Below, piece after piece: positions 2,853-59,725 of a stretch of 64,000 nt of DNA. Every line of letters starts with the position of its first letter. Positions within the stretch are counted from its first letter, which is position 1. This DNA comes from Rhodamnia argentea. Lineage: Eukaryota; Streptophyta; Magnoliopsida; Myrtales; Myrtaceae. Where the stretch lies: positions 19,309,095 to 19,373,094 of the forward strand of contig NC_063160.1 of NCBI RefSeq assembly GCF_020921035.1. The letters are read 5' to 3'. The position numbers were made by a program, and so were the translations under genes. The notes beneath the pieces are model-generated. The model had not been told where the DNA came from and did no database searches. It worked only from the letters and a program-made list of their open reading frames with translations.

Positions 2853-4271
2853 CAGTACACGTGCGAGACGACTAAGTCCTGGGCTAGTTCATGTATAGAG
2901 CCATGCATAATGGAGGAATGTAAAAGATAATAAACACATGAACTCAAAAAAAAAAAAAAAAATTCGGGCTCGGACAAATAAATAAAAGAAAATTACAGGT
3001 TGACATGGATGAAGAGGAATATAATATGTCGGAAAACATCAGCCCAACTCTACCAGATATGGAATAACTATGCAGAAATGCCACGTTGCTCGATCCGAAA
3101 CGCGTCTGAACTGCGAAAATATTTCCAGGACAGATGCCATCTGGTCTGTTACTTGTCTCTATAGTGACCTCAAGCTGGCTAGATTTGGCGGAAACCCTTC
3201 CTTCTCTGCAATTTTGCTGGTTGGTCCCAACTCCAATCCTACTGTGCTGAAGAGAATATGCCTTCCATGCACGTGCATATTCTCAAATCCTCTCCCTCCA
3301 TTTTCTTCTCCGATCCAACTTTTGACAAAACATTGTTGCCTTCTAAGGAATGCGAGTAGGACTTGCTTTGCCTTCCACGAAATGTCATATTTCCTAGCAT
3401 CGCCAACATCTTGTCAGAATGGGGTTCCTCCATCGTGCTATTCGGGTCAAGATAAGGTTTGATACAGGGGGCAAAAGATTCGTCTTTGCAAGAATCTATT
3501 CCATCGAAAATACACGACGGTCTCACATCACACCACAGTTCACAGACAACCCAAGTTCGATTTTTGTGTAGGGAGGGAAGAAAGGCTGTCCGTCCATTTG
3601 GGTCGGGGCAACTTGGGACCATCTGACATGAGACCGCGACAGAATCATCGGATTCGAGATCTGTTCTCTGTCTTTGTTGTCATGTCCGAGTCCGTACGAC
3701 AGAACGCAGGAGAAAATGGGAGCCGACCCGTGATTGCTATTGGTTACGCAAAAGAGAGAAACAACTCAGAGAGATCATGGAGATTATTCGCTTCCGCGCA
3801 GTCATGAGGTTGAAGACAAAGCGTACAACTAGCCCAGCTAATAATGATAGTGAACGGTAGTGGTTGACCGTTAATGTTGGAAGACCTTTTAAAAGTTCCC
3901 AACGCCAGTTAACTACTCCGTCCTTTGAACTCATCTCCAGTTTTTTATAATGCATTTGTTAAAATCCTAAACAAATAGCAGCACCAGTTGCTCCAGAGTC
4001 TGCAACAAAGTTGGTTTCTTTGACCTTTTGTGGTCACCTTCTTGCTTTAAACATTTGGTACTCTCTCAAATAGATCGGACCCTTGTTGGAATCTTCACTC
4101 TTCGTTAAAAATTCCACATCTTGACGAACTCTACGGTCCAAGGCCGAAATCTGTCTCTACTCAGTACTTTTTTCACCGGTGCTTGTCCAAGACTTCGTCG
4201 AAAGCCGATTCTTGAACTTGGTCCCCAGATTATTATCTGCAAGTAATCGATAATAATCGATCGCCAGAAAC

Positions 4272-7200
4272 ATGGCAGTCGCAGGGGAATTAACTGTTCC
4301 TCGTGGTCAGATCAGTTCAAAGATCCCGACTTTCAATTCCAAGAGCCAGATTTTCGGTGTGCCCATGATTTCTTGCTCTAGAGGGAGAAAGAAGAGTAGT
4401 ATTTCTACTGGAGTTAGAGCTGTATTGCAAGTGGGAGTGGAAGCAGCTGAGAGTGTGAGCAAGGTTGGGGGTGCTTTAGGGTTTGATGTGGTGGCAGAGG
4501 AAGAGTTGAGAGAGAAGGGGTTTCTGGGGATGAGGAAGACAAAGCTCGTGTGCACTATTGGCCCTGCTTGTTCCTCCTTGGAGGATTTGGAGAGATTGGC
4601 ATTGGGAGGGATGAATGTGGTGAGGCTCAACATGTGTCACAACTCGAGGGAGTGGCATTGGGATGTGATTAGGAAGATCAAGAAGCTGAATGAAGAAAAG
4701 GGATTTTGTGTTTCGGTCATGATTGATACCGAGGGCAGTCAGATTCATGTCGTTGATCATGGTGCTCCTTCCTCTGTCAAAGTAGAGGTCAGTGAACCAC
4801 AGAGGGATCACTTAATGGTTCATAAATTAGGAAGGGTCGATAATTCCGGACTTACTTTTTCGTGAAATTTTGTCTGGTCTGGTCTGCATTCATGTTTAAA
4901 CTTCATCTTAATTGAAGATACATTAATTTGCTTAATCCTATTCTCATGGTGCTTTGATTTGATATGAGAAAAATAGGAAGGATCAATCTGGTTATTTACT
5001 ACAAAAAAGTTTGAGGGTTCCCGCCCTTTCACTGTCCAAGCAAACCACTCCGGTTTTTCTGAAGGTATGAGTTACTGCATAGACAATGGAGTCTTTTAAT
5101 GTAATTGATATGTTTCGATGTCTAACCATCACTCTGTATGCTAAACGGGAACTTTCTCAGGTATCAAGGTTGGTGATGAGCTCGTTATTGATGGAGGCAT
5201 GGCGAGTTTTGAAGTCATTGAAAAGATTGGGAATGATTTGAAGTGTAAGTGCACGGATTCTGGTTTGTTTCTTCCTTGCGCCAAGTTCAGCTTTTGGAGA
5301 GATGGGAAGCTTGTTGAGAGGAATTACAAATTGCCTACTTTGTCAAGAAAGGTGGAATTTACAGTTCTGGCGTCTTGTTCTTATTCTTCCTCAGGCTTGG
5401 GACGTTACTGCTTTTAGTAGTTCTTTGACGATTTAAGTGTGTCATTTTTGCTTCGATGTGGAAATTCTGTGTGGTGTTTATTCATTGCTGGGTCGTTGCA
5501 TTTTATAGCGGACAGCAAGGAAACGTGAGAAAAGGAGAAACCTAGATTCTCATGCATTACCATTTGTGCTAAACATTTGCAAGAAATAAGGGGCAAAAGT
5601 TGGTTCTGGCAATTCGTAAAATTTCGTGGCTGCCCCTTATTTCCTTTCTTCTGAAGTAGGCGATTTCTGATTTGTAATATTGTATGTCGAATCTGACCCC
5701 TTCCTTTCTTTTTAAGTTGGGTGATGGGTAAGTATCGGATTTACCCCATGACCTCAGCACTTCATTGTAATGTACTGATACCATTACCATCTAAATCATT
5801 CATACTTCCGCCTTTGATGGAAACGGTGGTGAACATAAAACTGAGAAGTGAGCTTTATCCATCGATATGTAAAACGACTCTTCCGCTGGGAAGTGTAGTA
5901 CTGGAGATGAGGGGATTATCAAGCTGGTTTAGGTTCTCTGTTCTTGATTCCCGCTAATTAAACGTAACAGAGTACATATAACAGAATTCTAATTCGATGC
6001 TCCTGGATCCTCTCATTGTCATTACATAATCAGATTGGTTTGCTTAGATGGTGAAATTGCACAGCAAACCTACAATAAATGATCTCAATAATTAAAAATC
6101 CTGGAATTGCTTTCAAGCTTGTTACTTCACCTTATTATATGGTTGATTTGCAGGATTGGGCTGACATAGACTTTGGAATTGCTGAAGGTGTAGACCTCAT
6201 TGCAATGTCATTTGTTAATGATGCTGATGCAGTCCGCAACCTTAAGGATTACATTTCCACCAAATCATCCAAGTAAGTTGAAGTGGTGCATAAAGTTCAC
6301 AAGAAAGGAAGTTCTGGAGTTTCCATTTGTGCAATCTAATATCACCTCTAGTTACTGGAGTCTAAAACATAAGTTCTTTCTTTTGTACCAGATCTATTAG
6401 AGTATTGGCAAAGATAGAGAGCCTAGAGTCTCTTCAGAAACTGGGGGAGATTGTCGAAGCTTCCGATGGTATCATGATTGCTCGGGGTGATCTTGGTGTG
6501 GAAATCCCACTGGAGCAGATTCCGGCAGTGCAAGAGGAAATAACTTACGTCTGCAGGCAAATGAATAAGCCTGTGATTGTAGCTTCACAACTTCTTGAGT
6601 CCATGGTCGAATTTCCTACTCCCACCCGTGCCGAGGTACTATTACTAGGAATGAATTTTGTCATATAGGCAGGCCAGTTACATTCACTGAGAAGGATACA
6701 TCTAGTGATTGGCAGATTTTTACAGTTAGTTTCGTACGTCTGTCCTGTGCAGATTTACTGCGCTTGTCCTCTTTCTTTATCCTCTGTCCATTCAGAAAAA
6801 CCCATAACTTTTCTTGGTAATAGCACAATGAATGAAATATTCAGCTGAATTGGCTCAGAGCATAATTAGTTGCCTATTTCATCCAATGGTCTAAGTCATT
6901 GACGAGATGCTCGGTTCATAAGGTTGCAGATGTGTCTGAAGCTGTTAGACAGTATGCCGATGCTTTGATGTTATCTGGTGAATCTGCGATAGGAACACAT
7001 GGACAGAAAGCTCTGTCTGTCTTGCGAATGGCAAGCAGTCGGATGGAAACATGGAGCCGGCAGGAGAACCAACAGAGCATCCTCCGTCATCGCAAACTAG
7101 GAGCGTCATTGCCTGACCGTATTGCTGAGCAAATCTGTGATTGTGCTGCTGAAATGGGTAATATTCCTTTTCCCTTCAGCATCCTAATATTCTTACATGT

Positions 7201-7745
7201 AGTTTTAATCATGCAAGATATCTCATAAACTGCTAGCCCGCATTAGATACTCCACTATAATATGCTTTGTGCTTTTGAAGCCAGGAATGAAGGACCCTCT
7301 GTTAACATATTACGTGAAAACTGTGATGAGTTATGATATATTGCTGGACAAAACGTCTATCCTGGTCGAAGTTAACATGGATTTTGTGCGCTTATTTGTT
7401 CACTTCGCAGCTAACAACCTCGGGGTCGATGCCATTTTTGTGTACACAAAGCATGGACACATGGCATCTCTTCTTTCACGGAATCGCCCGTGCTCTCCCA
7501 TATTTGCGTTCACGAACGACAAAAGCACCAGGATGGCTCTCAATTTGCAGTGGGGAGTTATTCCCCTCTTTGTCGACTTGACAGACGACATGGAAGCCAA
7601 CATCGCGAAGTCGGTTGATCTGATGAAGGTAAAAGGGTTGGCGAGGGAGAAAGACGCTGTACTGGTGGTCTCGGACATCACTCCCACCGCCGCACCCTCT
7701 ACCTCCGTAGCTTTCCAGTCAATCCAGGTGAAGACCATTTCTTAA
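4272..7745 (+). CDS. Plastidial pyruvate kinase, alpha-type subunit (PKp1-like)
   Basis: Converts phosphoenolpyruvate and ADP to pyruvate and ATP in the plastid stroma, feeding fatty-acid synthesis; in plants the alpha subunit works in a complex with beta subunits. Exons by splice-site reading: 4272-4787, 4977-5064, 5161-5351, 6154-6272, 6392-6635, 6923-7157, 7411-7745. Together they give one 575-residue frame, close to the roughly 600 residues usual for the family. Residues 1-80 look like a plastid transit peptide (Ser/Lys/Val-rich, few acids). Pyruvate kinase marks follow in order: [12 protein letters not shown] (88-99), RLNMCHN (118-124), AKIES with catalytic-type Lys312, ARGDLGVE (335-342) and MLSGESA (402-408). 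The NMCHN form, instead of cytosolic NMSHG, and 'FGIAEGVD' match the alpha plastid type. All exon phases agree. The last intron acceptor and all donors are GT-AG. A broken partial copy lies at 16291-16880. Confidence 0.93.
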
Positions 7746-9181
7746 GGACTTAGGAACCACAAAATAAGTCAGAAGATGCGCAGAATTCTCCTCATATCAA
7801 GTGCAGCAGAAGTCTTCTTCACATGATGCCACTCGTCTATCACCGGTCGCTACAGGGTCAAGACCCAACAATGAACATTCTAAACAGGTCATATATTAAC
7901 CTTAATGGGTGATGCACGATTGCTTTTAACTTTTTGAGGATGCGTAAAACCTCACTTTGTGGTGTGATGCAATGCCCTCAAGCTCAATCTTGCACTGTTA
8001 GCTAGTAGTGATTATATATAATCACAATTGTTCCAAAGTTGGCTACTTCAAAGTTTTGATCGCTTCCATCTGTTGGCAAGACAAGAACGCAAAGGGACCG
8101 CTTAAGTAGCATAGATGCAAACACTAATCATGCTTTTGCCTCTGTTCAAAATCACTTGTACCGGAAACGCTATGCATCTTGAGCAGGGAGATTCGACATT
8201 TACATATTTCCGAGGCTTACACTTACGCTCCACTGCACGCCACATCTAAATTTTGTGACGAAAAAGCAATCAATGTAAGAGATCAAGAGGCAGAAGGCAA
8301 GGAGGAAATGAAAAACAGGGAGAAACTGATGCGTACATACCAAGTTATGCAATGCAGGTGGTAGGTCAAGGTCTTCGTAAAATCTGTATCCTGCTTGTCC
8401 CATTTGAACCCCAAAGGCGTGCGGGGAAGAGGTTGAAGAGTTCTGTACGTGCATGGGTGTCGTGTCGTCACGTGGACTCAGGAGGTAATGGAGGCAAAGC
8501 CACTCTTGTCCGAGAGAGAGAGAGAGAGAGAGAGACTTTTCTAAATCTAATCAGCTTTGACGTTTCTTGAATGACGTTTTCCTGTGAAACCGGTTTGGTG
8601 CATGTTGATGAACCAATTTGGACTTTCTGCTCACCTTCGATTCAATTGCGCAAAAACAAACACTTTTTGTTTCCCATCGAACAACATTTCCAACGTGATC
8701 TTCCACCGAATCCTTCTCCCGGAGATTGCGAGCTTAACGATTGTTGTAATAACCATAATAACGACAAATAACGATTATTTTTCTCATTTCATGCCAACAT
8801 CTAAATGTGACATGCCCCCCTAGACCTTGCGTCTCTGGAAGCTTCGACCTTGGGCAGCCTCCTATTCCCACGTCGCCATCTCTGTCGATCTCTCGAAGCG
8901 CAGTCGCGTATACCCACAGCCACAAAACAAGACCGCGCACGTTAGCCCTTGCATCAGCCGCCTCGCTAAAGTGCGCCCACCTGAATGAGAACTGAGGCGC
9001 GCCACCACCCCCCGCGTTTTGTCGCCACTGGATCCTTGTCCCTCTGGAGAGAAGGAGAATCGCCCCACGCTTCCTGCTTCCTTCTACGCAACTCGTTTTT
9101 CGTTCTGTCACATACTAACATGAAATTCTTCCTTGGCTGACGCAAATAGTCGGAACCCAGAACTGTAAGAGTCTGCAACTG
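7746..9181. other. Intergenic region: pyruvate kinase 3' flank and promoter of the plastid membrane-protein gene
   Basis: No supported gene. 7746-8100 is probable 3' UTR and terminator DNA of the pyruvate kinase gene. A GA microsatellite lies at 8511-8534. From about 8476 onward the DNA is the template for the five-unit array at 16895-20790, so 8476-9181 is probably the promoter and 5' UTR of the next gene. Confidence 0.6.
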
Positions 9182-11900
9182 ATGGCTTCGCTGCAGATTG
9201 CGAAACCCGCTTTCGCCTCGGCCTCTATCCCCCGATCGAAATTTAGCGGGAGCTCGAGGTGGTTTAAGGAATCGGAATCGAGGAGGAGGATTTTGAGATT
9301 GAGGAATTGTGGGTACTCGAGGAATGATTTGGAAAGGAGGCCTTTTGTTTCGTGTAAAGTCCAGGACCGCGACGGGAAAGGCAATGGAAATGGCAAGTTC
9401 CCTTCTTTTTCTCTTCCTCTTCCTCTTTTGCTTCTCGCACTGAAACAGACGTCCTTTTGTTTTTGGTGGTTTCCTCGCGCGGATTGATTCGTGGGTTGCC
9501 TAGATGATCAAATGCTTCTTTTCTTCTACGGTTGATGTTTTGCTTTTTGTGGGTATGCTTTGCAATTTCATCTTTCAAGCTACACTTACGAGACATGCAT
9601 CTCAAGGGCAACGGAGATTACCCAGTTGGATGAATTGAGACTATATGGGACGAATATTTTGTTGCATGTTTCTTTTTCCTTTGTTCCTCTCAATCGATTT
9701 GAACGTTACAGTGAGAAGCTCTGTTTGCTTTCTTGCTCTGCAAGTGCAGAGTCTCTCCTGAAACCTCCATGTTGTGTGTGTTGGTAGGAGCCACTACTCA
9801 TACAACGTCCCGCGACGCTTAATGATTGTGAACCAAGTCAATCTTGTAGTCTACGGGGATGCGTGAACCTGGATGCGAGCGGTGCTGGTGGATTGAATGG
9901 TGCTAGTGTTAATTCATTCTCGAGCGGATTCATTTGTTGGAATTAGTTTGTTTGAATGGTATGGTTCACTTTTGGCGGCTCATTTGTGGATCTTAAAAAA
10001 AAATTGCTTATAGAACCACAGACTAGGGGCGAAGGGGGTCTTGGGTACTCCAGATTAAGGAGGATTTCTTGTCACCACTACTCACGAAGGAACTCTCTTG
10101 GGATTTATCGAGTGTCTCCCCTTGTACTGATAGCTTTTCTTGCGGATGATTCCCCCAAGCCCGTCGGTTCCCTTTCAATTTTCATTTACCTGTCCAAAAT
10201 TCCCTTGCTCCATTTACTTTCTTAAGCTAAAAAAGGACAGCTGGAGACCAAGGTTTCCTTCTTTAATCTTGTTAGTGAAGGCTGATTATTTGTGATGCCT
10301 TAGTGAGATGCGTTGATCCCTGATCAGTACTAATCCTCTACACATTACTTTTTCTTAGGTTTAGATTTAGTATAATCTCCATCCTCTGCATAGTCTGATT
10401 TTTTTGCCTAGTACTAAGCGTGAACATATTCATTAGGAAGGCAAATAGGGCCTTGGAAAGGTTTGAACTCAGAACTTCTTGCTTTGATACCATGAAAGAT
10501 TTTATAAGACCACAACCAACTATTCTAAAAGCTTAAGCTGATAGAAAAAGGCGTGGTTTAATATTTATATATCCCAACAAAATACATAAGAGTTGAGCTG
10601 TTCTAGTTTTTAATAGTGACGTTATCAAATTACCGCAGGTGAAGAACCTCCCGAATCGTTGTTTATGAAAGAATTAAAGAGGAGGGGCATGACTCCCACT
10701 TCATTGCTTGAGGACACAAAAAAGAGCACCTATGGCAACGAATTAGAAGAAGAGAGGGGTTTCTCAAAAAGAAATGCAGTCTCTACTGAACCAGGAAATA
10801 GTTTAACCAACCAAAGGGAGCAGTCGATGGCATTGAACAGTGAGGGCCTTGAGGTTGGCAAATACTTGCTCTTTTCTTTTTGTTGTCAAGTTCCAACTTT
10901 TATAGCTGAAGGCGGCTTAATAAACGAGTTTTGACTGTTTTTCTTTCCTTTGCTCTGGCATATGCGACGCACATTCGAGAAACTGAGAGAAATTTATTCT
11001 TGGCAGGGTCTGATTCCACGGGCCAAACTTCTGTTAACACTTGGAGGGACTTTCTTCTTGGGGTTTTGGCCACTGATTCTTATAACTGTGGCATCCTTTT
11101 GTGCTCTGTACCTCGTAAGCTACCTTCCTTGGCCTTCCTGCTGTACATGAAACTTCTGTTAGATTGTCACTGGCCAGACACTTCTTATACTATGAGGACC
11201 ATTTTTGTGGAATATTGTTCTCTGACTGACTTGTCAGTGCCAAATACATAGCAATTTGCCAGACACTTGTTATGCTTTTGAGAACCAATTTTGTCGAATG
11301 TCATTTTCTCGCCGACTTGTCAGTGCCTAACATTGGAGGAATTTAGCACATTTGATGTTCTGTAATGAAGTTCGCTAATGAAGTTCGCGTATAATATTTT
11401 AAACTTCACCTTGATTTAATGCCTAGGACATGGTCTGAGTCTAAAAACGCTGTGGACTTTTGTTTGTTCGAGTTGCGGGGAAATATGATGTAACACGTTC
11501 CAGCGTGAAATGAATTGTTACTTGCTTTAAATTCTATCATTTGTGGTCATTTTTTGTCCTTTCAATAATTTTTTTTTTTTGCATGTATAAGTAGATTGTA
11601 CAAAGGTAAGGACTCGACAATGTCTTAGCGTCATTTAAATTCTACAGCATTTCCTCAGGCATATTCCTTTTCGATTTTCATCTGGTTCCGTCTCTTCGGT
11701 GCTCTTGACTACATGTTGGTGTGGAAGCTCTTTGCAGATTTCATGATTTAAATGGTAAACCCTTGTTTCTTTGACAGTATTTTGGACCGACTTTTGTCCA
11801 CGATGCAAGCAAGGTGCAAGTGTCACCACCCCAGTACGTCGATCCGTATGCGCTTCTCGAAGACGAAAGGATATCCCAAACAGCTCCTCGAGTTAATTGA
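9182..11900 (+). CDS. Uncharacterised plastid-targeted single-span membrane protein
   Basis: Exons 9182-9392, 10639-10853, 11007-11114 and 11778-11900 join in phase to a 218-residue protein. Residues 1-55 are rich in Ser, Arg and Ala with few acids, like a plastid transit peptide. The middle (71-142) is hydrophilic and begins GEEPPESLFMKELKRRGMTP. Exon 3 encodes one strong membrane span (about 148-178, LLLTLGGTFFLGFWPLILIT). The tail reads YFGPTFVHDASKVQVSPPQY and ends near VDPYALLEDERISQ. I do not recognise a named family; the pattern is that of a conserved plastid membrane protein of unknown role. Intron 1 uses a GC donor (AATG|GCAAGT), the only reading that joins GNGNG to GEEPPE, and it carries a TRIM-like insertion. 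The start ATG is the first in frame. The promoter and exon 1 have been copied into the array at 16895-20790. Confidence 0.78.
10380..10579 (-). mobile_element. TRIM-like retrotransposon fragment in intron 1
   Basis: Read on the minus strand, a short LTR (10579 down to 10493) starts TGTTGGGATATATAAATATT and ends TTTCA. It is followed at once by TGGTATCAAAGC (10492-10481), a primer-binding site of the initiator-methionine-tRNA type. The internal part then matches the related copy at 50780-51009. The second LTR is missing. It sits in an intron, in antisense orientation to the gene. Confidence 0.65.
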
Positions 11901-14595: not shown

Positions 14596-16119
14596 TCAGC
14601 CATTCAATCCTCCCAGATTGCAGTTGGGGGTAAAGTTACGCCGGAATGGAACTCGACGAAATGGCTGGCCAAAAGGAGAAGGAACCCCAAACCCAGGTAG
14701 GCGGTCATAGTCTCCACCTATCATTGCTGGAAAAACAAACGGGTTTGGATCCCTCCTGATCCTGAAGTAGAAAGGCCTGTCCACACGAGAAGGCGTCTGC
14801 CACCAACTACTCTCCCTCTTTGTCTTCTTCTTCGCCTCCCAGGACCATGCGAAACTTTGCTTCCAATTGATCATCCCTCGCCTTTCTGTCCGCTCTGCAA
14901 ACTCCTCCACATACTTTTGCTTCCATAAGTCATTATTGGATGTCAAATATCGAAGTTCCGAACACACACCTCCTACCCTCGCAAGGTCAATTCCGGGAAG
15001 CAATTCAAAAATCTTGAGCTTCAGTTCCGTGGGAAGGCATGTGAAACAAGATGGGAGCGGCAAACCAACCCTTTCGGTTAGGTCTATTAACAGCGGCAAT
15101 GCCAAACCATCTTTCACAATCTTCCAAAACTCAAACACATCTTTTTCAGAATATGAAATCGGACCACCATCCTCATTCACTTCAACATTATTATGGCCTT
15201 TTGCCAACATCACGTCTATAGTAGGTGCAAACCTTCGCTCATCCAAACAGATTCTACGCAGTCCTGACTTGACTTTAGCGAGATATCCATAGATAGTTAT
15301 AAAGTGACCTAAGCTTTGAAATTTCAAAACAACACTCTCAGGCATATTGACGCTCTGCCTAGACACAAGGACAGGCAGACTGTACCGCAATGACATGGTG
15401 AATGCAGACGACGGCCATTGATCGGGCAGATGGAAACGATCAGCAGGAATTCCAGTCACCGGATCAACAGCGACAAAACCGGATTCCTGCATAACCGCGT
15501 GCACCGCTATGACTAGAAGTCTATGGTCACCACCGTCACCACCCAATTCCTCCCTCAAAACCCTCCTCAGAAAGTAAGGCTCAGAGAACTTACTGCGAAC
15601 CACAACCGACCCATCCACAGCGACAAAGCCATCGCCATCAAAATCATCACTTTCAGGAACAGAATTACCTCGATCTTCAGTGTTTCCCGAAACTTCGACT
15701 TTCTGCACATCTTCAGGAACCAAATCGGCCATCTCCGAATCCGCGACCTCCCGAGGCCGCCCTGCTAAATTGGGCAAATCTTCAGAATCCATGTCCGCGT
15801 GCCCTTGAGAAACCTGATTCGATGCGCCTGCTGAGAAATTGGGGTCCGAGGAGCTATTATCTCCCCGGGAAGCGAAACCATCAGGGTCGAGGGTGTAATA
15901 GACGAGGTCGCCAGATGCGAGGCCGAGAGATTGGAGAGAATCGGCGGGATTCGGCGACTGAAGCTCGTCCGTGCGGTTAAGAGAGAGGCGGAAGGAGGAG
16001 CCAGGAGCAGGAGAGAGGCGATCGGCGAGGATCTGGCGGAGCTGGGGGAGTGAGCAGGGATTGGGGACGTCGAGCTTGAGGGTATCGTTGGATTCCAGAG
16101 ATCGGAGCCTGAGCTTCAT
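14596..16119 (-). CDS. F-box protein, SKIP22-like (UBL + PI31-like + F-box)
   Basis: A single-exon gene; the chosen ATG (16119-16117) gives 507 residues starting MKLRLRSLE. The frame stays open to 16236, but the extra 40 residues do not look like the family, whose ubiquitin-like domain starts at MKLRLRSL. Domains: ubiquitin-like region at 1-75, acidic linker to about 180, a PI31-like N-terminal domain (about 180-340, including FLRRVLREELG and FHLPDQWPSSAFTMSLRY), and an F-box at 362-407 (LPTELKLKIFELLPGIDLAR). The basic and aromatic tail ends in a Gly/Phe/Arg-rich PI31-type stretch (GGDYDRLPGFG). Known: SKIP22 and animal FBXO7 share this layout and act as substrate receptors of SCF ubiquitin ligases. 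It is intact and lies between the two related pyruvate kinase/plastid-protein blocks. Confidence 0.9.
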   Translation of the reverse strand: MKLRLRSLESNDTLKLDVPNPCSLPQLRQILADRLSPAPGSSFRLSLNRTDELQSPNPADSLQSLGLASGDLVYYTLDPDGFASRGDNSSSDPNFSAGASNQVSQGHADMDSEDLPNLAGRPREVADSEMADLVPEDVQKVEVSGNTEDRGNSVPESDDFDGDGFVAVDGSVVVRSKFSEPYFLRRVLREELGGDGGDHRLLVIAVHAVMQESGFVAVDPVTGIPADRFHLPDQWPSSAFTMSLRYSLPVLVSRQSVNMPESVVLKFQSLGHFITIYGYLAKVKSGLRRICLDERRFAPTIDVMLAKGHNNVEVNEDGGPISYSEKDVFEFWKIVKDGLALPLLIDLTERVGLPLPSCFTCLPTELKLKIFELLPGIDLARVGGVCSELRYLTSNNDLWKQKYVEEFAERTERRGMINWKQSFAWSWEAKKKTKRESSWWQTPSRVDRPFYFRIRRDPNPFVFPAMIGGDYDRLPGFGVPSPFGQPFRRVPFRRNFTPNCNLGGLNG

Positions 16120-16290
16120 GATGATCAACACCGATGTTAATCTGCCGAAGGTAGGGACACGAGTCGACATTCCCATCTTTAAGAGGAAGACCAAGTCACC
16201 GTCAGCCTTCAGGCCCGTTACAAGTTTTAGGCCCAATAATCATCACAACCAGAGATTTTTTTTATAGTTTCACCCATGAGAGAGCGCCCA

Positions 16291-16880
16291 CATTCTCACG
16301 CATTACCATTCATTGGTTTGCCAGAACTACATCATTATGAAATTTTGTTGCTGACCCTCATTTCCTTAGGCGATTGCAACATTGTATGTCGAAGACTTAT
16401 CCGGACATTACACATGCTATATTGCGACGTGCTGATGATCATCTAAATAATCGATTCTATCATATATGATGGAGACGGCGGCGAATCTAAAACTGAGAAG
16501 TGAGCTTTAACTTTCGAGGATGGATATGAAAAGGGAGTCTTTTCTGCTGTGAGGTGTATTACTGGAGAAGAGTGGATTATCAAGCTGTTATAGGTTCTCT
16601 CTTCTTCATTTCCGCTAACTTATGTTGTCTGCAGGCAAATGAATAAGCCTGTGATTGTAGTTTCTCAACTTCTGGAGCCCATGTTCGAATTTCCTACTCC
16701 AACCCGTGCCGAGGAGCTACTAGAAGGAATGAGTTTTGTCATATAGACAGGCCAGTTACATCCACTGAGAAGGACATATCTAGTTGTCAGCAGATTTTTA
16801 ACTCATAGTTTTGTCTCTGTCCTGTGCAGATGTAGTGCACTTGTCCTCTTTCTTTCCGCTGTCCCATTAATATAAAGCCA
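16291..16880 (+). pseudogene. Pyruvate kinase gene relic (intron 3 + exon 5 pieces)
   Basis: 16291-16615 follows the plastid pyruvate kinase intron 3 (about 5540-5955): the CATTACCATT start, TATGTCGAA, GAGACGG.GGCGAA and AACTGAGAAGTGAGCTTTA are shared. 16620-16745 then jumps to exon 5 (about 6545-6668), still reading [20 protein letters not shown], and continues into intron 5 (to about 6790). Exon 4 and its flanks are deleted and no other pyruvate kinase exon is present, so this is a dead fragment. It has the same orientation as the parent and is followed directly by the promoter-exon array, in parental gene order. Confidence 0.85.
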
Positions 16881-16903
16881 TAAAATTACGAACATGGACT
16901 AGG

Positions 16904-17103
16904 AGGTAATAGGGGCAAAACATTTTTGTCCAAGAGACTTACTTGCTTAAGCAACAGGTCAATGTCCATCTAATTCATAAATCTAATCAATTTTGATGTT
17001 TTTGAATTACATTTTCCTGATTGATTTCTCTTAGAAATGTGATCGGTCTACTAAATTTGGATCTCTAATAACTTCTCCCTTAAGCAAGCTCCTGATTCCA
17101 CGT

Positions 17104-17153
<50 letters not shown>

Positions 17154-17706
17154 GCAGCCACGTCCCCATCGGCACAAAGAAAAAAAAAATGGGTTTGCCC
17201 CGGTTCCCAAAATGATCCAATTACCATCCTTCCTTTCGAAGCAGTTCATAGCGGGGCCCTTTTCTAATAACAATGGAATTGGAATGAAGGGGATAATCCA
17301 TGAATATTGATATGTATATTCCATAAATAAATAAATAAAAACATACCTGCAATGGGCAAAAGCCCTAAGCTTGCTGCTTCCTTCTACACAACTCATTTTC
17401 TATTCTTCAAATACGAACATGAAATGGTTCCTACTCCGATGCAAATAGTCCAAACACGGAACTACTGAAAAGTTACTGCAATTGATGGCTTCCTGCAGAT
17501 TGTAAAACCCGCTTTCGCTTCAGCTTCTAACCCTCGGTCGAAATTTAGCGGGAGCTCAAGGTGGTTTAAGAAATTGGAATCGGAAAGGAGGATTTTGAGA
17601 TTGATGGATCGTGGTTATTCGAGGAACAATTTGAAAAGGAGGTCTTTTGTGGAAATGACAAGTTCCCTTCTTGCCAATGTCCATCAATCTCCTGATCAAT
17701 TTTGGC
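16904..17706 (+). pseudogene. Array unit A (truncated 5' gene copy)
   Basis: The start-like ATG is at 17486. One base is lost after ATGGCTTC, so the frame hits a stop at codon 7. Exon 1 similarity runs to about 17660 and ends GAAATGACAAG, losing the GC splice donor of the parent. It contains a long CT tract (17106-17150). Confidence 0.85.
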
Positions 17707-18082
17707 GGTAATAGAGGCAAACATTTTTGTCCAAGAGAGACTTACTTGCTTAAGCAACAGGTCAATGTCCATCTAATTCATAAATCTAATCAATTTTGGC
17801 GTTCCTGAATTACATTCTCCTAATTGATTTCTCTCGGGAATGTGATTGGTCCGCAAAACTTGGGTCTCTCATAACTTCTCCCTTAGGCAAACTCCCGATT
17901 CCACGTCACCGTCTCTCTCTCTCTTAAAGCACAGTCACATCCCCACAGCCACAAAAGAAAGAAAAAGGTTTGCCCTAGTTCCCCAAATGATCCAATTACC
18001 ATCCTTCCTTTCGGAGCAGTTCATAGCGGGGTCCTTTTCTAATAAGAATGGAATTGGAATTAAGGGGATAATCCATGAATAT

Positions 18083-18122
<40 letters not shown>

Positions 18123-18496
18123 CATAAAAAAAAAATCGCAATGGGCAAAAGCTCTACGCTTGCTGCTTCCTTCCACGCAACTCATTTTTTGTTCTTCAAA
18201 TACAAACATGAAATTCTTCCTACTCTGATGCAAATAGTCTAAACACGGAACTACCGAAAAGTTACTGCAATTGATGGCTTCCTGCAGAATGCGAAACCCG
18301 CTTTTGCTTCAGCTTCTAACCCTCGGTTGAAATTTAGTGGGAGCTCGAGGTGGTTTAAGAAATTGGAATCGGAAAGGAGGATTTTGAGATTGATGGATCG
18401 TGGGTATTCGAGGAACAATTTGAAAAGGAGATCTTTTGTGGAAATGACAAGTTCCCTTCTTGCCAATGTCCATCGATCTCCCGATCAATTTTGGCG
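17707..18496 (+). pseudogene. Array unit B
   Basis: ATG at 18274 with the same one-base loss as unit A. The CT tract is short, but an (AT)n microsatellite has grown at about 18083-18120, where other units read GATATGTATATTCC. The exon 1 remnant again lacks the donor (GAAATGACAAG). Confidence 0.85.
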
Positions 18497-19253
18497 GTTA
18501 TAGAAGCAAAACATTTTTGTCCAAGAGAGACTTACTAGCTTAAGCAACAGGTCAATGTCCATCTAATTCATAAATCTAATCAATTTTGGCGTTTTTGAAT
18601 TACATTCTCCCGATTGATTTCTCTCGGGAATTTGATTGGTTTGCGAAACTTGGGTCTCTCGTAACTTCTCTCTTAGGCGAACTACCGATTCCAAGTCACC
18701 GTCTCTCTCTCTCTCTTGAATCGCAATCACCTCCCCACAACCACAAAAGAAAGAAAAAGGTTTGCCCCAGTTCCCCAAATGATCCAATTACCATCCTTCC
18801 TTTCGAGCAAGCGGGGCCCCCTTTTCTAATGAGAATGGAATTGGAATGAAGGGGATAATTCATGAATATTGATATGTATATTCCATAAAAAATATCGCAA
18901 TGGGCAAAAGCCCTACGCTTCTTGCTTCCTTCTACGCAACTCATTTTTTGTTCTTCGAATACGAACATGAAATTCTTCCTACTTTGATGCAAATAGTCTA
19001 AACACAAAACTATTGAAAATTACTGCAATTGATGGCTTCCTGCAGATTGAGAAACCCGCTTTCGCTTCAGCTTCTAACCCCTGGTTGAAATTTAGTGGGA
19101 GCTTGAGGTGGTTTAAGAAATTGGAATCGGAAAGGAGGATTTTGAGATTGATGGATCGTGGGTATTCGAGGAACAATTTGAAAAGGAGGTCTTTTGTGGA
19201 AATGACAAGTTCCCTTCTTGCCAATGTCCATCAATCTCCTGATCAATTTTGGC
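18497..19253 (+). pseudogene. Array unit C
   Basis: ATG at 19032, same frameshift after ATGGCTTC. A short deletion removes part of the segment after TTTCGAGCA (near 18805), making this a short unit. The exon 1 remnant ends GAAATGACAAG. Confidence 0.85.
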
Positions 19254-19455
19254 GGTAATAGAGGCAAAGCATTTTTGTCCAAGAGGGACTTACTTGCTTA
19301 AGCAATAGGTCAATGTCCATCTAATTCATAAATCTAATCAATTTTGGCGTTCCTGAATTACATTCTCCTAATTGATTTCTCTCGGGAATGTGATTAGTCT
19401 ACAAAACTTGGGTCTCTCGTAACTTCTCCCTTTGGCAAACTCCCGATTCCACGTC

Positions 19456-19502
<47 letters not shown>

Positions 19503-20048
19503 GCGCTGTCACATCCCCACAGCCACAAAAGAAAGAAAATGGTTTGCCCCGGTTTCCCAAATGATCAAATTACCATCCTTCCTTTCGGAGCGGTTCATAG
19601 CGGGGCCCTTTTATAATAAGAACGGAATTGGAATTAAGGGGATAATCCATGAATATTGATATGTATATTCCATAAAAAAAAATCGCAATAGGCAAAAGCC
19701 CTATGCTTGTTGCTTCCTTCTACGCAACTCGTTTTCTATTCTTCTAATACGAACATGAAATTCTTCCTACTCTGATGCAAATAGGCTAAACACGGAACTA
19801 CCGAAATGTTACTGCAATTGATGGCTTCCTATAAATTGTGAAACCCGCGTTCGCTTCAGCTTCTAACCCTCGGTCGAAATTTAGCGGGAGCTTGAGGTGT
19901 TTTAAGAAATTGGAATTGGAATTGGAAAGGAGGATTTAGAGATTGATGGATCATGGGTATTCGCAGAACAATTTGAAAAGGAGGTCTTTTGTGGAAATGA
20001 CAAGTTCCCTTCTTCCCAATGTCCATCAATCTCCTGATCAATTTTGGC
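19254..20048 (+). pseudogene. Array unit D
   Basis: ATG at 19821, followed by ATGGCTTCCTATAAATTG, the shared frameshift plus a further substitution. It has a long CT tract (about 19459-19499). Exon 1 carries an extra 6-bp repeat (TTGGAATTGGAATTGGAA). Confidence 0.85.
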
Positions 20049-20790
20049 GGTTATAGAGGCAAAATATTTTTGTCCAAGAGAGACTTACTTGCTTAAGCAA
20101 CAGGTCCATGTCCATCTAATTCATAAATCTAATCAATTTTGGCGTTCCTGAATGACATTCTCCTAATTGATTTCTCTCGGGAATATGATTGGTCCGCAAA
20201 ACTTGGGTCTTTCGTAACTTCTCCCTTAGGCAAACTCCCGATTCCACGTCATCGTCTCTCTCTCTCTTGAAGCGCAGTCACATTCCCACAGCCACAAAAG
20301 AAAGAAAAAGGTTTGCCCTAGTTCCCGAAATGATCCAATTACCATCCTTCTTTTTGAAGCAGTTCATAGCGGGGCCCTTTTCTAATAGGAATGGAATTAG
20401 AATGAAGGGGATAATCTATAAATATTGATATGTACATTCCATAAAAAAAAACCGCAATGGGCAAAAGGCCTATGCTTGCTGCTTCCTTCTACGCAACTCG
20501 TTTTCTGTTCTTAGAATACGAACATGAAATTCTTCCTGCTCCGATGCAAATAATCTAAACACGGAACTACTGAAAAGTTACTACAATTGATGGCTTCCCT
20601 GCAGATTGCGTTTCGAATTGATGGCTTCCTTTGAAAAGTTACTACAATTGATGACTTCCTTTGAGATTGATGGATCGTGGGTATTCGAGGAACGATTTGA
20701 AAATGAGGTCTTTTGTGGAAATGGCAAGTTCCCTTCTTTTTATCTCCGTCTTCCGTTTCTCGCATTGAAACGGTTTCATGGGATATTTTC
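20049..20790 (+). pseudogene. Array unit E, the terminal unit that still reaches intron 1
   Basis: ATG at 20590. Here ATGGCTTCCCTGCAGATTGCG keeps the parental length, without the one-base loss of units A-D. The middle of exon 1 is scrambled by small repeats of 'TTGATGGCTTCCTTTG'. Only this unit keeps the parental GC donor context (GAAATGGCAAGTTCCC) and runs on into intron 1 sequence (TCTCGCATTGAAAC), ending about 20775. Confidence 0.85.
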
Positions 20791-21032
20791 TTACATTAGA
20801 TATAGTTATGATGTTTCTGCTGATTATTCGTATATCTCAAGACTGCATGTATATCTCATTTTGATTATACATATCTTGATTGAGATATTATCACATAATA
20901 GTTATTTAATAAAGCCTACAAATAAGCTTATGTGTTATTAACTGATGTAGACATCGAAATATATAGAAAATTCCACATTTCTTTCTTCTGCATCTTATTA
21001 TTCTTAACTATTTCAATTGCCTTCTCACTCGG

Positions 21033-21071
<39 letters not shown>

Positions 21072-21429
21072 GTTTTTGCGCTATGAAACTTTCTTCCTGC
21101 AACGGGGACCGCTTTGAGCTAGCCGAGCAAGCACTCGGATGCTGGGAAGCTAAACGTCAGGTTGTACACAAGAAGTATTTCGAGGATCGGCAAGTACCTG
21201 TTGCGATCGTCCTTCCAAAGGAGACACCCATGTATGGCAATTTATTTACTGTTGACCTTCCTTAAAGTTCGGAATTTGCGTTGCAAAGGAAGGATATGAT
21301 GCGACCGTCCTTACAAGTCGTTTATTTTCCGCGAAATAAATATAGCCTTAGTTCGATTGTGAATTAGGTTATTGAACCATGTCAACTGGCTTCTCTAAAC
21401 TAGGATAATTATCCAAAAAAAAAATCTTA

Positions 21430-31372: not shown

Positions 31373-33919
31373 TTGATTTTTCATGGCCGGTAAGTTGTCT
31401 TAGTGCTTTGGCTTATGCTATTATAATCAGCAATTGTGCTCCATATATTCTTTTCTCGGGAATGGGCACATGGCGAGGCAGGGCTGGGCTCATCCTCGAG
31501 GGGCACCGTCCCCCATGTGAGGAAATCTCATTAATTTTTAAAATCATATATTGCAAATATATCTTATTGGTATTATTAACTTAATAGCATATGTTTTTTA
31601 TTTTCTCTTCACGTTAAATTGGGTGGGTCATACATTAGAATGAGTTATGTATAGATTAATATAACAAATATAACCGCTGGGCACAGATGCCCATTTCTCT
31701 TCTCTTATCATTATAACCAAGATGAGGCTGATGTTCTGAGTTTGACTTTTTTCCCTTCAAGATCTGTGCTTGTCTGCACGTGAGAGACAGATTCACACAT
31801 GCTCCGAAATGGGCTTTAGAATCGAAAGATGCACTTTACTGGGGAAGGTCGAGCACGGCCCTATTGGTTTCGAGAACTGACATGCGACTTCTCTTCTTGG
31901 TCTTCCTTATGAAATTGATTAAAAGTTGACTTGACTTGAACAGCATTATGAAACCAAATATCGGGGTACCTGCTGCAGATTGCAATATTTGCATTAAAAT
32001 TCAGCTGCTCTTGTTTTAATAAATTAACCATATTAATTATTTGTGACTTGCAGCATCTTCCTCCAGCCTGGTGCTTATATCACGTAAGCACGGAGGGTGC
32101 ATGTTGCAGGCAATGCTCCACTTATCGAATCGCATTTTCAACTTGTACTGGCAATTGGTGTAAAAGAAGACTTACTCGGAGATGCAGCATCCCAACTGCA
32201 GCTGCACTGCTGAGGTGATTAGAACTCAGCTTACCGTTCAGTGGACACGAAAGAAAGACAGCGTTGTCGGTTTAATAAGAGATAATTAGCTCTTCTTTTT
32301 TTCTTTCTCTTCTTTTTTTTCTGGAAGAAGGAAGCCCATTTGATGGGGCACTGATCTAGAACTAGAAGTCCAGAACAACAAATAAAAAAACAAAAAGAAG
32401 CAAAAACCCGGGTCAAAGCTCAGGCCAGTATTGTCGTCGATGTTGCTTTTGTTTGGGGATTGTTTGGGGATGGGGAATTCAAAGTGTTTGACTCACGTTT
32501 TGCAGGCGGAGAGTGTGAATGTTGGTGCTTTTTGTGGAGAATTATGAGAGCAGCAGCATTATGCGGTCCAAGGGTCATTCATATTGGCGCATGATGTTGG
32601 TCGACGGTGGTTTTGATGAACCGAGCGGGTGTAGATAAGGTCGTTTGGTCAGCATCATCCCTCGTTTTCCGTCGAGAGCGACTTTGGATATGTTCAAACC
32701 AGTGTCATTGCTGCCGTTCACTCTCGGTTGCAAGTTGAATGGTACTGCTACCACACATAGACACTTTGACCAATTAACGTAAGCCTCTTCTTAATCTCTA
32801 ATTTCCAGGATGTGGGGGCGTTCATATTCAAGGGATAGGAAATTGTTCTTTCACTGCCCGTATCATTTGCACCATTTACTCTTACTACTAAGTATGTAAG
32901 TCTGGCTTGTTTACCTATCCAGTTAAACGCAGCAATCGGAAAATGGCAAAAGGAATTGACATGATGATTGCACAAAGTATAATTTTTTCGATTGCGATGT
33001 GTCCTTAAACTATTCGTGTTTTTTTTTTAATTAATTCCAATCACCATTACAAGCAAATTAGTCGAGTGCACTTACCATTCTAAAGTCTTCCATGCAATTG
33101 TCGCCACATTTATTGTCCCTCTATCCGTTTGTCTTGTTCCTCAACTCGTTTATAATTTTCTCTCGTTCGTTCGAACGATACAAGCGATCGTTTTTTAGAA
33201 AATGTATTTTCCAAAATTTTTGTTTTGTTGCGAAACAAATGAAGTCTTAATGCCAAATCTTTTTTTTTTTTTTTTTTTACTTTTATGTGTTTTTACTTCA
33301 CATTCTATCTGTATGAATGCACCACGTATCTACGTGACATGTTTGTCGGCCAAAAGTCTACGTCCGACATATACGCACCACATATCCGCGTGATATTCTT
33401 GTAAATCAAAAGTTCACGTCTGACATGAACGTACCAAATATTCGGATGATATGCTTGTCGGCTAAAAGTCTATGTCTGACATGTATGCATCACATATCCG
33501 CATGATATGCTTGTCATCCAAAAGTCCACGTCTGACACAAATGCATCACATATTCACGTGATATGTTTGTCGGCTAAAAATTCACGTCTAACATGTACGC
33601 ACCACATATTCGCGTGATATGCTTGTCAATTGGATATGTTTCATTAGAACTTTGATTGTGTGGGCCATCTTATATTTTTGTCTTCTAATTTTAGCTTGCA
33701 ATAAAAACACATAAAAAAAAAAAAGAATGTGAAGTGAAATCGGATTAACAAGTGATCTGGTTTCAGCAAACAATGTAAATAGTTGACCGTCCCACCGTCT
33801 GACTTGGTGGAACGATCAGCTTAGCCGATTTCATTAAGCGCTGAATTTTTAGTTTTTGGCACTTTATTGAGTTATGAAACATACTCTTAGTTTTTCAACC
33901 ACCAACCCCCCACCCTCCC

Positions 33920-39188: not shown

Positions 39189-39686
39189 ATGAGGAACACC
39201 AAAGTGGCCAGCAAGCAAAGCAAGATCAAGCACTTGATGTCGGCGCCCCTGAGGATCATGAGCAAGGCGAAGAACTTCTACATGAGGAACATGGAGGACT
39301 TCGCCGGCAGGGTGGGCCAGAACGGCGGAGTTGGCGGCCCTGCCGCTGCTCAGGTCACGACGCTGCCCAAGAGCTTCAGCGTGAACTCATCCAAGGAGAG
39401 GGACGAGGACGAGGACTTCCGGGAGCTCGTGCGGGCCGTTTCTAAGAGGAGAGGCTTGGACATGACCGGTTTCGAGTCGCGGAACGGGTACGGTTCCAGT
39501 AGCGGTACCAATAATGTTTACGGCGTGGGGAGGAGCCAAAGCGTGGGGTTGGGGAAGATAGGGAGGATTGATGAGAACATCCCTGCTGATGAGTTTGAGG
39601 AAGATAGGTTGAATCTGAAGGCCGATTCGGCGTATCCAAGGAGCAGAAGCCATGCTGTTGGCCGGAGAAACGTTGGGCTCTATTAA
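39189..39686 (+). CDS. Uncharacterised plant protein, paralogue 1 of 3
   Basis: An intronless gene; the ATG at 39189 gives 165 residues aligned with its two neighbours, while the longer upstream frame (from 39075) is the CCT-tract leader. Shared blocks: SKQSKIKHLMSAPLRIMSKA (residues 7-26), NFYMRNMEDFAGRV, LPKSFSVNSS, and a GKIGRIDEN..EFEED element. The Arg-rich tail is YPRSRSHAVGRRN. No signal peptide, membrane span or known catalytic motif is visible; it is Ser- and Arg-rich and probably largely disordered. The layout reminds me of a plant family of which some members are labelled Avr9/Cf-9 rapidly elicited, but that recollection is uncertain. It is the most diverged of the three and the best kept in composition (GC-rich codons). 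Confidence 0.82.
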   Translation: MRNTKVASKQSKIKHLMSAPLRIMSKAKNFYMRNMEDFAGRVGQNGGVGGPAAAQVTTLPKSFSVNSSKERDEDEDFRELVRAVSKRRGLDMTGFESRNGYGSSSGTNNVYGVGRSQSVGLGKIGRIDENIPADEFEEDRLNLKADSAYPRSRSHAVGRRNVGLY

Positions 39687-41457
39687 ATGCTAAAGGCAAA
39701 GAAACTTTGGTGGATTATAAGATGTTTGAATTGGGGAAGATCAAGATGTAAATAATAAGAGTTTGAGGGCGTGTCCATTTCGACTTATGTACCTTCTTGG
39801 ATTGTATCAAATTGGTGATTGTTTAGTTCAGGTCTTCTCTTTTTTTTTTTTTTTTTTTTTTTTGTTTTTTTTTTTTTTTTTATGGTTGTCGTTCGAGAGT
39901 TGTAGCTATAAATGCTACTCGATCGATGGTGTCTTGGATCATACTGCACAAAAATAATCAAACATGTATTTGATGATAATTCAGAGAATATTTGGTAACA
40001 TGTTTCCGTCAAGCTCTGTTCATTCTTGCACAGATAAATTCTGGTCATTGATCTTGTTGTGGTCAATCGATGTGAATTATAGTAAGCCCTTTCTTTCTAA
40101 ATGACAATGTCGGCACGTTAAATCCGATGAGCTTGAAGCTTCCGCAATGGCATTCAAGGGTTTTCTTGGTGTGTATAAGGCAAGTATTGAGAGAGAAGAT
40201 TTGCCATCTTGAAAATACTTTTCTCTTGATAATTGGCAGAATATTCATACCCAATGTATGAACAACCGACTATTCACTATAGATTGGCAAGTTTAGCAAT
40301 TTGCTCTCTTCTAATTGCGGATTCGATTACACGTACAGCTCCGACGAACTATATGAAATTGCTCTGCATCGAATAGGCGATCTTCGATTGGGGATTGCCC
40401 CATCATCATGGCCATTGTCGTCGTCATCTAGAATAAAATAAGAAAAAGGGCCACACAATTAAGAACAGTAATAATCTTGTTATTACTGCAGCTATGTCTT
40501 AAGCTTATGAGCGATTGAAATCATTCGGAATTTCTTGCTTCTCGAGAGTTTTCTATTTCCAAATTCCAAAGTACGTATCACGAACCTGCAATTGAGCGTG
40601 TGCTCCGCTACTTCGTCACCAGTTTTCTTTGGCGGGTGGCTGCTAATTAATCATTAATTAGTCAGTTTAATTTTTAGATTCTATTGGTCTCTTGGTCAAA
40701 GCCAATGCAAAAGGACGTAAAGTCTATAACCTAGACAACCGGCCGTCCTGAAAAGTTACGGAACTTCCAAAGGAGTTAAAGGCCGGAATAATTTCCTACC
40801 ATAATAGAAAAGCTCTCTCTATAGTTTTCATCTTCATAATATTTCAACATGGAAGGCGCTAGCCTGACAGTCCGACAGATCTGTCATTATTTCTAACCCC
40901 ACGATATTTCAATTAATTAGTGCTTTATGCAAAATACGCGATGATGATGTGTGAATTTATAGTCAGAAATAATCGACAATCTTGTCATACTTCCAGAAAA
41001 ACATTCTCCTTTGACCATATTAGAAAAAACACGTATATAATAGTCGTGGTTTTCTGTTGCGCCAAATTAATAGTAAACATTTCGGATAAGACCGCTGATT
41101 GGTTCTGTTTGTTTTCTTGTGTTTTTTTTTCAATTTTGCCAGCTTTACGTTATTCTGTGAACAGCGTTCTTGAAGTCTCATTTGACATTTCATATGTTGA
41201 AACTTTTGAAAAAGTCATAGACACGCCACGTCAACGTTCCTATTCCACTAGTCATGGAAATCATTGCCGTTATGTCTAATCTACGTTGATATTAACCTTG
41301 TGAGGCCATATACTCCAAGACCCAAAACGCCTTCATATTGAACTTTCTCTTCAAGCTACGCTCTCATAGCTTGAACAATAAAACCCTAATCTCGTGCTCC
41401 AATCTCACTCCGTCTCTAAGTTATAGTTTCTCTATGCTTGAGTGCGAGCGAGCAGAA
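39687..41457. other. Spacer between paralogues 1 and 2
   Basis: Contains the probable 3' UTR of paralogue 1, a T-rich tract (39839-39881) and unique DNA. About 41090-41340 is similar to 43690-43960 upstream of paralogue 3, so the promoter was duplicated with the gene. Confidence 0.55.
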
Positions 41458-41931
41458 ATGGCGGCGTCTAAGCAAAGTAAGTTCAAGCACGTGATAGGAG
41501 CACCCATTAGAGTTTTAAACAAGGTTAGGAGTCTCTACATGAATAGTTTGATGGATTGCACAACTAGGGTTGATTGCAGTGGACCTGTTGTCGGAGGTCC
41601 AATCCCTCCAGTGTCGACTCGGTCGCCCAAAAGTTTTAGCGTCGACTCTTCGGTGAATGATCATGAATTACAATGCATGAGTTTATCTCAATCGGTTTCT
41701 AGGACCAATCCACGGAGGGAAGTCGAGAAATCGAGAATCACGAGCAAGGTTCGGCCAGCAAATGCTATGCAATCTAATTGTGCAATGGGAATGAGGAGTT
41801 ACAGTGTTGCGGTCGGTTTGATAGGAAGGATTGATGAAGATAACTCTTGTTCTTTTGAAGAGGATAAGGGGGATGTCTTGTACCCCAAATGCAGAAGTTA
41901 TGCTCCTAAGAGAAAGTTTGTGTCCTACTAA
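41458..41931 (+). CDS. Uncharacterised plant protein, paralogue 2 of 3
   Basis: An intronless gene of 157 residues starting MAASKQSKFKHVIGAPIRVL. The same frame is open upstream to 41338, but homology with paralogue 3 begins at this ATG. Blocks match paralogue 3 closely (LYMNSLMD, MRSYSVAVGLIGRIDED, SCSFEEDKGD) and paralogue 1 more loosely (PKSFSVDSS, GRIDED). It ends KRKFVSY and a TAA stop. It uses AT-rich codons, unlike paralogue 1. The function is not known; see paralogue 1 for the tentative family. Confidence 0.8.
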   Translation: MAASKQSKFKHVIGAPIRVLNKVRSLYMNSLMDCTTRVDCSGPVVGGPIPPVSTRSPKSFSVDSSVNDHELQCMSLSQSVSRTNPRREVEKSRITSKVRPANAMQSNCAMGMRSYSVAVGLIGRIDEDNSCSFEEDKGDVLYPKCRSYAPKRKFVSY

Positions 41932-44060: not shown

Positions 44061-44573
44061 ATGGCGACGTCTAAGCAAAGCAAGTTCAAGCACGTAATAG
44101 GAGCACTCATTAGGGTTTTAAGCGAGGCTAGAAATCTCTATATGAACAGCTTGATGGATCGCGCGACTGGGATTGATTACAGGGGAACAATTGTCGGGGG
44201 TCCGGTTGCTCAAGTGCCGACTCTATTGCCCACAAATTTCTATGTCTACTCTTCCATGAATGATCATGACGCGCAAAGTATGAGTTCGTCTCAATTGGTT
44301 TCGAGGACCGATTCGAGGAGTGAAGCTGAGAAATCGGGAATCCCGAGCAAGATTCGGCGGGCAAACTATATGCAATCTAATTATGCAAGGGGGATGAGGA
44401 GTTACAGCGTTAGGGTAGGTGTGATAGGAAGAGTTGATAAAGATGAGTGTTGCTCCTTCGAAGACGATAAAGGTGATTTCTTGTATACTAAAAGCAGAAG
44501 TTATCCTACTAAAAGAAAGGTTGTATACTACTCACTCTTCAGATATGACCTGATTTGGCGATTAAAAGCTTGA
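44061..44573 (+). CDS. Uncharacterised plant protein, paralogue 3 of 3, with extended C-terminus
   Basis: An intronless gene of 170 residues starting MATSKQSKFKHVIGALIRVL. It is collinear with paralogue 2 throughout (LYMNSLMD, VIGRVDKDE, CSFEDDKGD). At the position of the paralogue 2 TAA stop it has TCA, and the frame runs on for 13 codons into DNA that is 3' UTR in paralogue 2, ending at TGA. It therefore has a new tail, SLFRYDLIWRLKA. Otherwise there is no frameshift. Substitutions at residues conserved between copies 1 and 2 (for example PKSFSV has become PTNFYV) suggest relaxed constraint, so it may be heading to pseudogene status. Confidence 0.75.
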   Translation: MATSKQSKFKHVIGALIRVLSEARNLYMNSLMDRATGIDYRGTIVGGPVAQVPTLLPTNFYVYSSMNDHDAQSMSSSQLVSRTDSRSEAEKSGIPSKIRRANYMQSNYARGMRSYSVRVGVIGRVDKDECCSFEDDKGDFLYTKSRSYPTKRKVVYYSLFRYDLIWRLKA

Positions 44574-49845: not shown

Positions 49846-50779
49846 ACGTTATACGAATCATTACTTTTGCTTTCCGAACGTTGTCTTTACATCGGGGAAG
49901 ATACCATAATAAGAATAGTTTTTCAAAATAAAAACTCCATTATATATCTTTCTCATATACATTCTCTCTCTAAACAGATCCTCTTAACCAATGTTTTTGG
50001 AGTACTTGTTAAAGTATACTTTAGTTGAAATAATATAGCTTTTCTTGTAAAGAGGGGGAGGGGGGGGAGAGATATTGTAAAAATATGCAATCATGGGGGA
50101 CACTGTTAAAGATAACAATAAAATGAAATTGCATTACAATACATTGGCAATTTTTATCCTTCCAGAAAAGGCAAAATTTTGCCTTTTGTAGTTACAATTT
50201 CACGCATTTTCTAATTAATTCCATGTACTTTCAATTTGTCTAGTCAAGTCTTTTACTTTTATAAATTCTCTAATCAAGCTCCTTTGACACTGAATTTGAT
50301 AAAAATTTAGCTGACAATGCCGTAACGTGAAATTGTGGGTGACATGGATAATTTTTTTTCTAATGTAGACATCAAACGATAATCCGAACTTGTCTAGTAT
50401 GTCTAAATTTTTCCACATATATCCAGCTAGGCAACTATATGTTTTACCAACATCATACTTTCGATTGTTGACGATCACGCCAGTTTAAATTTTGGTCGAA
50501 TTTGTTGTTCGGGAGACTTAATTAGAAAATTTGCAAAAATAAAAAAATTTATTTCGGTATAATAAAATATTATAGATAAGAAAAAAATGTTCAATATTAA
50601 AAAGAGCCATGTCAATCGCTGCTGTGGAGCGCATTTTTTTTAAATATTTTTTTACCTCATGTCCAATAACAAATCGAAACGTGTCAGTTGTGTTGGAATA
50701 AAAAGGGAAATTCTAAGTTTATCCTCCTCCACCCACTTTTCTCTCAAGATCTGGTTGTTGTTCAAGGCGTCGGTGCGAC

Positions 50780-51464: not shown

Positions 51465-51470
51465 TATGAA
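51465..51470 (+). promoter_or_regulatory. Decayed TATA box of SCPL gene 1
   Basis: TATGAA occupies the position where the otherwise similar promoter of gene 2 has TATAAA (59726-59731). It lies about 65 bases upstream of the start codon. Confidence 0.45.
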
Positions 51471-59720: not shown

Positions 59721-59725
59721 CTCCA

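Follow-up and report, generated by a model that had tools for sequence, protein, structure and literature searches.

Genes and repeats at the locus

The window (the whole stretch of 64,000 nucleotides analysed here, apparently from a flowering-plant chromosome to judge by its genes) contains a pyruvate-kinase-like gene, whose product we take to be located in the plastid, its downstream neighbor, which we call the parent gene, an F-box gene, and two pyruvate-kinase-like fragments followed by an array of five units (Table 1). An Rfam scan of the window gave no match at the gathering score. A Pfam scan of the parent model identified no family; its putative product, a plastid membrane protein, is named on the basis of the earlier note and of a hydrophobic stretch judged by eye. 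The sequence before the parent ATG includes a short upstream reading frame at 9120-9140 (ATGAAATTCTTC...), the ATG of which is retained in all five units while its stop varies among them, as judged by eye. A repeat in parent intron 1 (10388-10579) is found again at 50818-51009, with 83% identity and C>T at 6 of 10 CHG sites.

Table 1. Coordinates of the features at the locus, numbered from the first base of the window
Feature	Position	Strand	Remarks
Pyruvate-kinase-like gene (source of the two fragments below)	4257..7745	+	Pfam PK 6.1e-18 and PK_C 1.6e-20 on first and last ORFs
Template region of parent (exon 1 with upstream sequence and intron 1 start)	8470..9446	+	Colinear BLAST matches to array
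Parent gene	9182..11900	+	Four-exon model by exon joining, 218 aa, GC-AG first intron
F-box gene	14596..16122	-	Pfam F-box-like 4.8e-10
Two pyruvate-kinase-like gene fragments	16435..16883	+	Copies of 5783-5957 (76.1%) and 6541-6807 (84.2%)
Unit A	16892..17703	+	Keeps original 5' edge
A/B junction filler	17674..17705	+	Resembles the unit's own 16960-16995; local alignment score 18.5
Unit B	17704..18492	+	Tandem unit
Unit C	18493..19250	+	Tandem unit
Unit D	19251..20045	+	Tandem unit
Unit E	20046..20771	+	GC donor kept; homology extends into intron 1; separate rearrangement near 20571-20664

The array, with a homology span of about 16892 to 20771, is made up of five units lying head to tail at spacings of 803, 790, 758, and 795, which upholds the five-unit tandem amplification described in the earlier note. 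Counted from 16902, the units are 802, 789, 758, 795, and 726 bp long; in the comparison of column variation unit B was taken as 791 bp, with a two-base overlap into unit C. Pairwise identity among the five units is 81.4 to 92.1%, and BLAST between multi-unit blocks gave E-values of 0.0 to 1.8e-168, far beyond chance.

Other repeats lie elsewhere in the window. Tandem gene copies at 41121-41932 and 43726-44535 are 73.7% alike by BLAST, with ORFs of ∼160 to 170 aa, and an ORF at 39189-39686 appears related to them by eye; Pfam scans of the ORFs at 39189 and 41455 gave no match. A long direct repeat (50355-54567 and 59438-64000, ∼8 to 9.5 kb apart, 72 to 96% identical in pieces) reaches the window end, and a Pfam scan of selected ORFs in it gave no match either. 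An inverted repeat of ∼153 bp (45930-46082 and 46668-46820, 91.6% identity) possibly represents the ends of a small element, and 33319-33627 is a tandem repeat of 5.5 copies of a 56-bp unit.

Units match the 5' part of the parent gene and are broken

The template that the earlier note had placed upstream of and around 9182 was recovered as a series of colinear BLAST matches. Units A to D each align to parent 9062-9348 (unit B from 9067) with 77.8 to 83.4% identity, and unit E aligns in three pieces (79.7%, 86.0%, and 82.3%); overall, unit-parent identity is 78 to 85%, a divergence of 15 to 22%. The homology of unit E continues into intron 1, again as the note had stated, and reaches parent 9446. 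The 120 bp directly before the ATG are recognizable in all five units; beyond about -120, similarity to the parent is discontinuous, in pieces of 66 to 83%. Parent 8930-9062 is covered by a single long weak match, in unit E only (61.4% over 420 columns), and parent 8585-8803 has no match in any unit. As read from these alignments, part, not all, of the parental promoter is recognizable in the units, where either side may have changed, and the proposal that each holds the whole of it is not supported.

The alignment directly reveals lesions common to units A to D. A single base after ATGGCTTC is missing from all four and present in unit E, and the splice donor reads AC instead of GC in all four, whereas E retains GC. 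The broken founder proposed for A to D is borne out, as is the placing of unit E at the parental, 3' edge of the array (unit A forms the 5' edge). Unit E is not undamaged, however, as had been supposed: its start-codon context is present in triplicate at 20571-20664, and the subsequent portion of exon 1 is absent. In addition, 37 bp near the end of parent exon 1 are absent from all five units, a result that was the same when C and E were realigned. If this is a loss in the units, it would be older than the amplification; it could alternatively be a gain in the parent. Translation from the homologous ATG ends after 6, 18, 18, 6, and 14 aa in units A to E, the frame being broken in each. The units, E included, are dead as protein genes.

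A probable decayed copy of a two-gene region

The pyruvate-kinase-like fragments, which the earlier note does not mention, lie directly 5' of unit A, keep the order and orientation of their source, and include non-coding sequence. In their alignment the source reads GAGGTACTA and the copy GAGGAGCTA; a splice donor was likely lost here. The colinear order is a direct observation, with source positions 5783, 6541, 8470, 9062, and 9446 corresponding to 16435, 16616, 16892, 17362, and 20771 in the copy. Because the kinase fragments stand in parental order, the array belongs to a decayed copy of the two-gene region, and on the simplest reading it sits in a genomic copy of about 5783-9446 with internal losses, 6808-8469 among them. 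The copies hold intron 1 homology (unit E) as well as upstream and non-coding kinase sequence, as duplicated, non-processed pseudogenes do. The comparison covered the 64-kb window, and the source of both copies could alternatively be elsewhere in the genome, where further copies may also occur.

One filler, likewise absent from the earlier note, is directly visible at all four junctions (A/B, B/C, C/D, and D/E), with point differences; it separates the beginning of intron 1 from the unit that follows. The A/B filler scored 18.5 against the 5' part of its own unit, compared with a best score of 14.0 from 1,000 base shuffles of the target, none of which reached it; the D/E filler aligned with a score of 18.0, the shuffles covering the A/B filler only. 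Since the filler is the same at every junction, we infer one founding rearrangement followed by unequal crossing-over; the founding junction itself may have been made by template switching during repair.

Transversion distances are 0.093 between kinase remnant and source, 0.040 to 0.076 between units A to D and the parent, and 0.016 to 0.036 among A to D. The smaller distances among A to D make the amplification look younger than the segmental duplication; the distance from the parent to A to D is probably reduced by constraint on the parent. Trees of the five units with the parent, a check that the earlier note had proposed, had no branch at the support threshold, and all 10 possible 2:3 splits are present among the units, so the order of amplification is not readable from them. 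Exchange between units may have mixed their relationships.

C>T changes in the array

Methylated CHG sites, like methylated CG sites, are lost through deamination. With the majority base as reference, C>T changes occur at 23/187 CHG, 21/174 CG, and 30/989 CHH unit-sites when microsatellites and unit E after column 17500 (the exon part of E) are excluded, and at 27/208, 25/226, and 47/1130 when they are included; 17/39 CHG, 17/38 CG, and 29/211 CHH sites are variable. By dinucleotide, CHG exceeds CHH for CA (8/15 versus 8/72) and CT (8/15 versus 10/71), with no excess for CC (1/9 versus 11/68), and the CHG excess is absent from transversions (1 CHG, 5 CG, and 21 CHH columns). The three possible pairings of units A to D gave CHG:CHH odds of 3.4, 2.3, and 4.5 (p = 0.0005, 0.028, and 0.00001), and an unpolarized count in the array gave 13/35 for CHG and 31/205 for CHH (p = 0.004). 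The pair of units A and B alone showed no CHG signal (4/38 versus 21/225), and from parent to unit there was little CHG excess (5, 5, 7, and 8 of 24, versus CHH 14/77, 16/79, 14/79, and 16/79).

Controls were 25 non-array self-matches of the window, 13 chosen first and then the other 12, with some overlap (the 33313-33630 repeat). Mantel-Haenszel CHG:CHH odds were 0.92 for the 13 pairs (0.66 without 41121/43726) and 0.89 for all 25. The CHG fraction was above the CHH fraction in eight of the 25, namely, 41121 (17/39 versus 57/241), 35998 (4/16 versus 4/37), 35594 (1/4 versus 4/25), 10388 (6/10 versus 15/60), 33313, 40769, 48027, and 49238. It was not in excess in the two kinase-remnant pairs adjoining the array (1/27 versus 11/70 and 1/13 versus 8/41) or in the long repeat pair 52600/62074 (9/133 versus 67/525). 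CG sites also change fast in many of the controls, and the CG component of the scar is therefore not specific to the array. Ten ORFs chosen for a Pfam scan for transposon domains gave no match, and the CHG test therefore has no proven methylated transposon as a positive control. For gene bodies, the loss of methylated CG through deamination has been described (PMC5175322). The clustering of C>T at CG sites and, to a lesser degree, at CHG sites makes it probable that the array was once methylated, and the methylation-like scar fits silencing of the array.

Weighing other explanations

Tandem repeats are prone to assembly mistakes, but the units are 81 to 92% alike and every one has private differences (9 to 65 singletons per unit), a pattern that would not arise from a single sequence falsely duplicated; we dismissed assembly error on these grounds as scarcely credible. 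Pack-MULEs favor the 5' ends of genes as cargo, and capture of such ends by a Pack-MULE or Helitron, with amplification inside the transposon, is a further alternative. The fragments, however, come from a single neighboring locus in parental order and orientation, and between the flanks (16300-16900 versus 20650-21200) the best inverted match reaches 8 bp, less than the mean of the shuffles and equaled in 200 of 200 of them. Capture with terminal inverted repeats was dismissed on this account, although ends could lie farther out, and transposon capture as a whole appears very improbable.

For a working role of the array, the nearest systems in form come from Arabidopsis and maize. In Arabidopsis thaliana, truncated FOLT2 copies (FOLT2tr) located near FOLT2 are reported to silence FOLT1 by producing siRNAs and inducing methylation (PMC8042742), and small RNAs from the array might silence its parent in trans in the same manner. 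Like FOLT2tr, the array consists of additional, truncated copies of a functional gene, here with promoter-near sequence; it bears a methylation-like scar, and 18 of its 3,860 21-mers (pure CT or AG words dropped from the matches) have an exact counterpart in the parent gene. When the comparison is confined to parent 9120-9430, 7 of the 21-mers match exactly, 71 with one mismatch, and 110 with two. Of 3,857 24-mers, 8 match the parent gene exactly. Yet the CpG observed/expected ratio is 1.02 in the parent 5' region and 1.25 in parent exon 1; this lack of depletion argues against long-term trans-silencing and leaves recent methylation untouched. The count of 18 exact 21-mer matches likewise tells against an effect on the parent. 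Unit-parent identity is just 78 to 85%, and BLAST found no inverted copies of units in the window except microsatellites; the five reverse-complement 20-mers recovered are microsatellite edges. The FOLT2tr target, moreover, lies on another chromosome and the copies are described as recent, whereas the array copies are local and 15 to 22% diverged. Trans-silencing of the parent is unlikely, and it is just as doubtful that the array draws CG and CHG methylation and that small RNAs from near-identical 21- to 24-nt stretches modulate the parent or the F-box gene, which would make it a cis-linked natural counterpart of FOLT2tr. The repeats might also control the parent or the neighboring F-box gene as an enhancer or epiallele, in the manner of the hepta-repeat of maize b1, the units of which are near-identical. 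Maize b1 has seven 853-bp tandem units and pl1 five of 2,092 bp, outside the coding sequence, with a repressed state tied to methylation or small RNAs; the pl1 units are identical and mostly transposable element fragments, and the b1 unit is "otherwise unique" (PMC3798267, PMC11166354). Tandem regulatory elements are described as silencing-prone in transgenes (PMC11500991). The array resembles b1 and pl1 in unit size, copy number, and tandem arrangement. The F-box gene, which faces away, starts ∼0.3 kb from the kinase remnant, and the array is ∼0.8 kb upstream of that start. But its units are 81 to 92% alike (8 to 19% different) rather than near-identical, and they are diverged pseudogene pieces, whereas the b1 and pl1 units are described as other than pieces of the controlled gene. 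Among A to D, 12% of exon columns are variable compared with 17 to 30% in four upstream segments, a pattern that does not suggest selection on the regulatory sequence; the exons may vary less because the units exchanged them more recently. An enhancer or epiallele is decidedly improbable, and a FOLT2-like or b1-like role in general is unlikely.

Origin and meaning of the array

The locus is most likely an ordinary duplicated pseudogene array, an inert repair relic rather than a working control element. The kinase-like gene, together with the 5' end of the parent gene, would have been copied to a site ∼8 to 11 kb downstream, as genomic DNA because non-coding sequence is included, and then decayed. 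Later repair inside the copy would have linked the beginning of intron 1 back to sequence lying 5' of the promoter, leaving the filler and producing an initial tandem duplication. Its 5' copy would then have acquired the frameshift and the donor loss, and unequal crossing-over would have expanded it to units A to D, with E remaining as the 3' edge. We consider this whole scenario, from local segmental copy through repair junction and crossing-over to dead and probably silent units, to be likely; which segment was copied from which, how the repair proceeded, in what order the final steps took place, the past methylation, and the want of present function are what we infer.

Tandemly amplified truncated duplicates with junction filler are a known kind of pseudogene array, with disabled frames and one junction common to head-to-tail copies, as found here in all five frames and at all four junctions. 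The array has in common with this kind the colinear genomic copy, the lesions, the junction, and the dead frames, and differs in detail only, the unit being promoter-near sequence plus exon 1. Among the literature matches listed, there was no account of this locus.

The locus offers a clear fossil of how a gene-fragment array can originate, by local copying, a single repair junction with filler, and expansion. The C>T pattern suggests that methylation of such an array can be long-lasting without extending to the parent in cis. Should small RNAs turn up, the array would allow a test of whether such old fragments continue to influence the gene from which they came.
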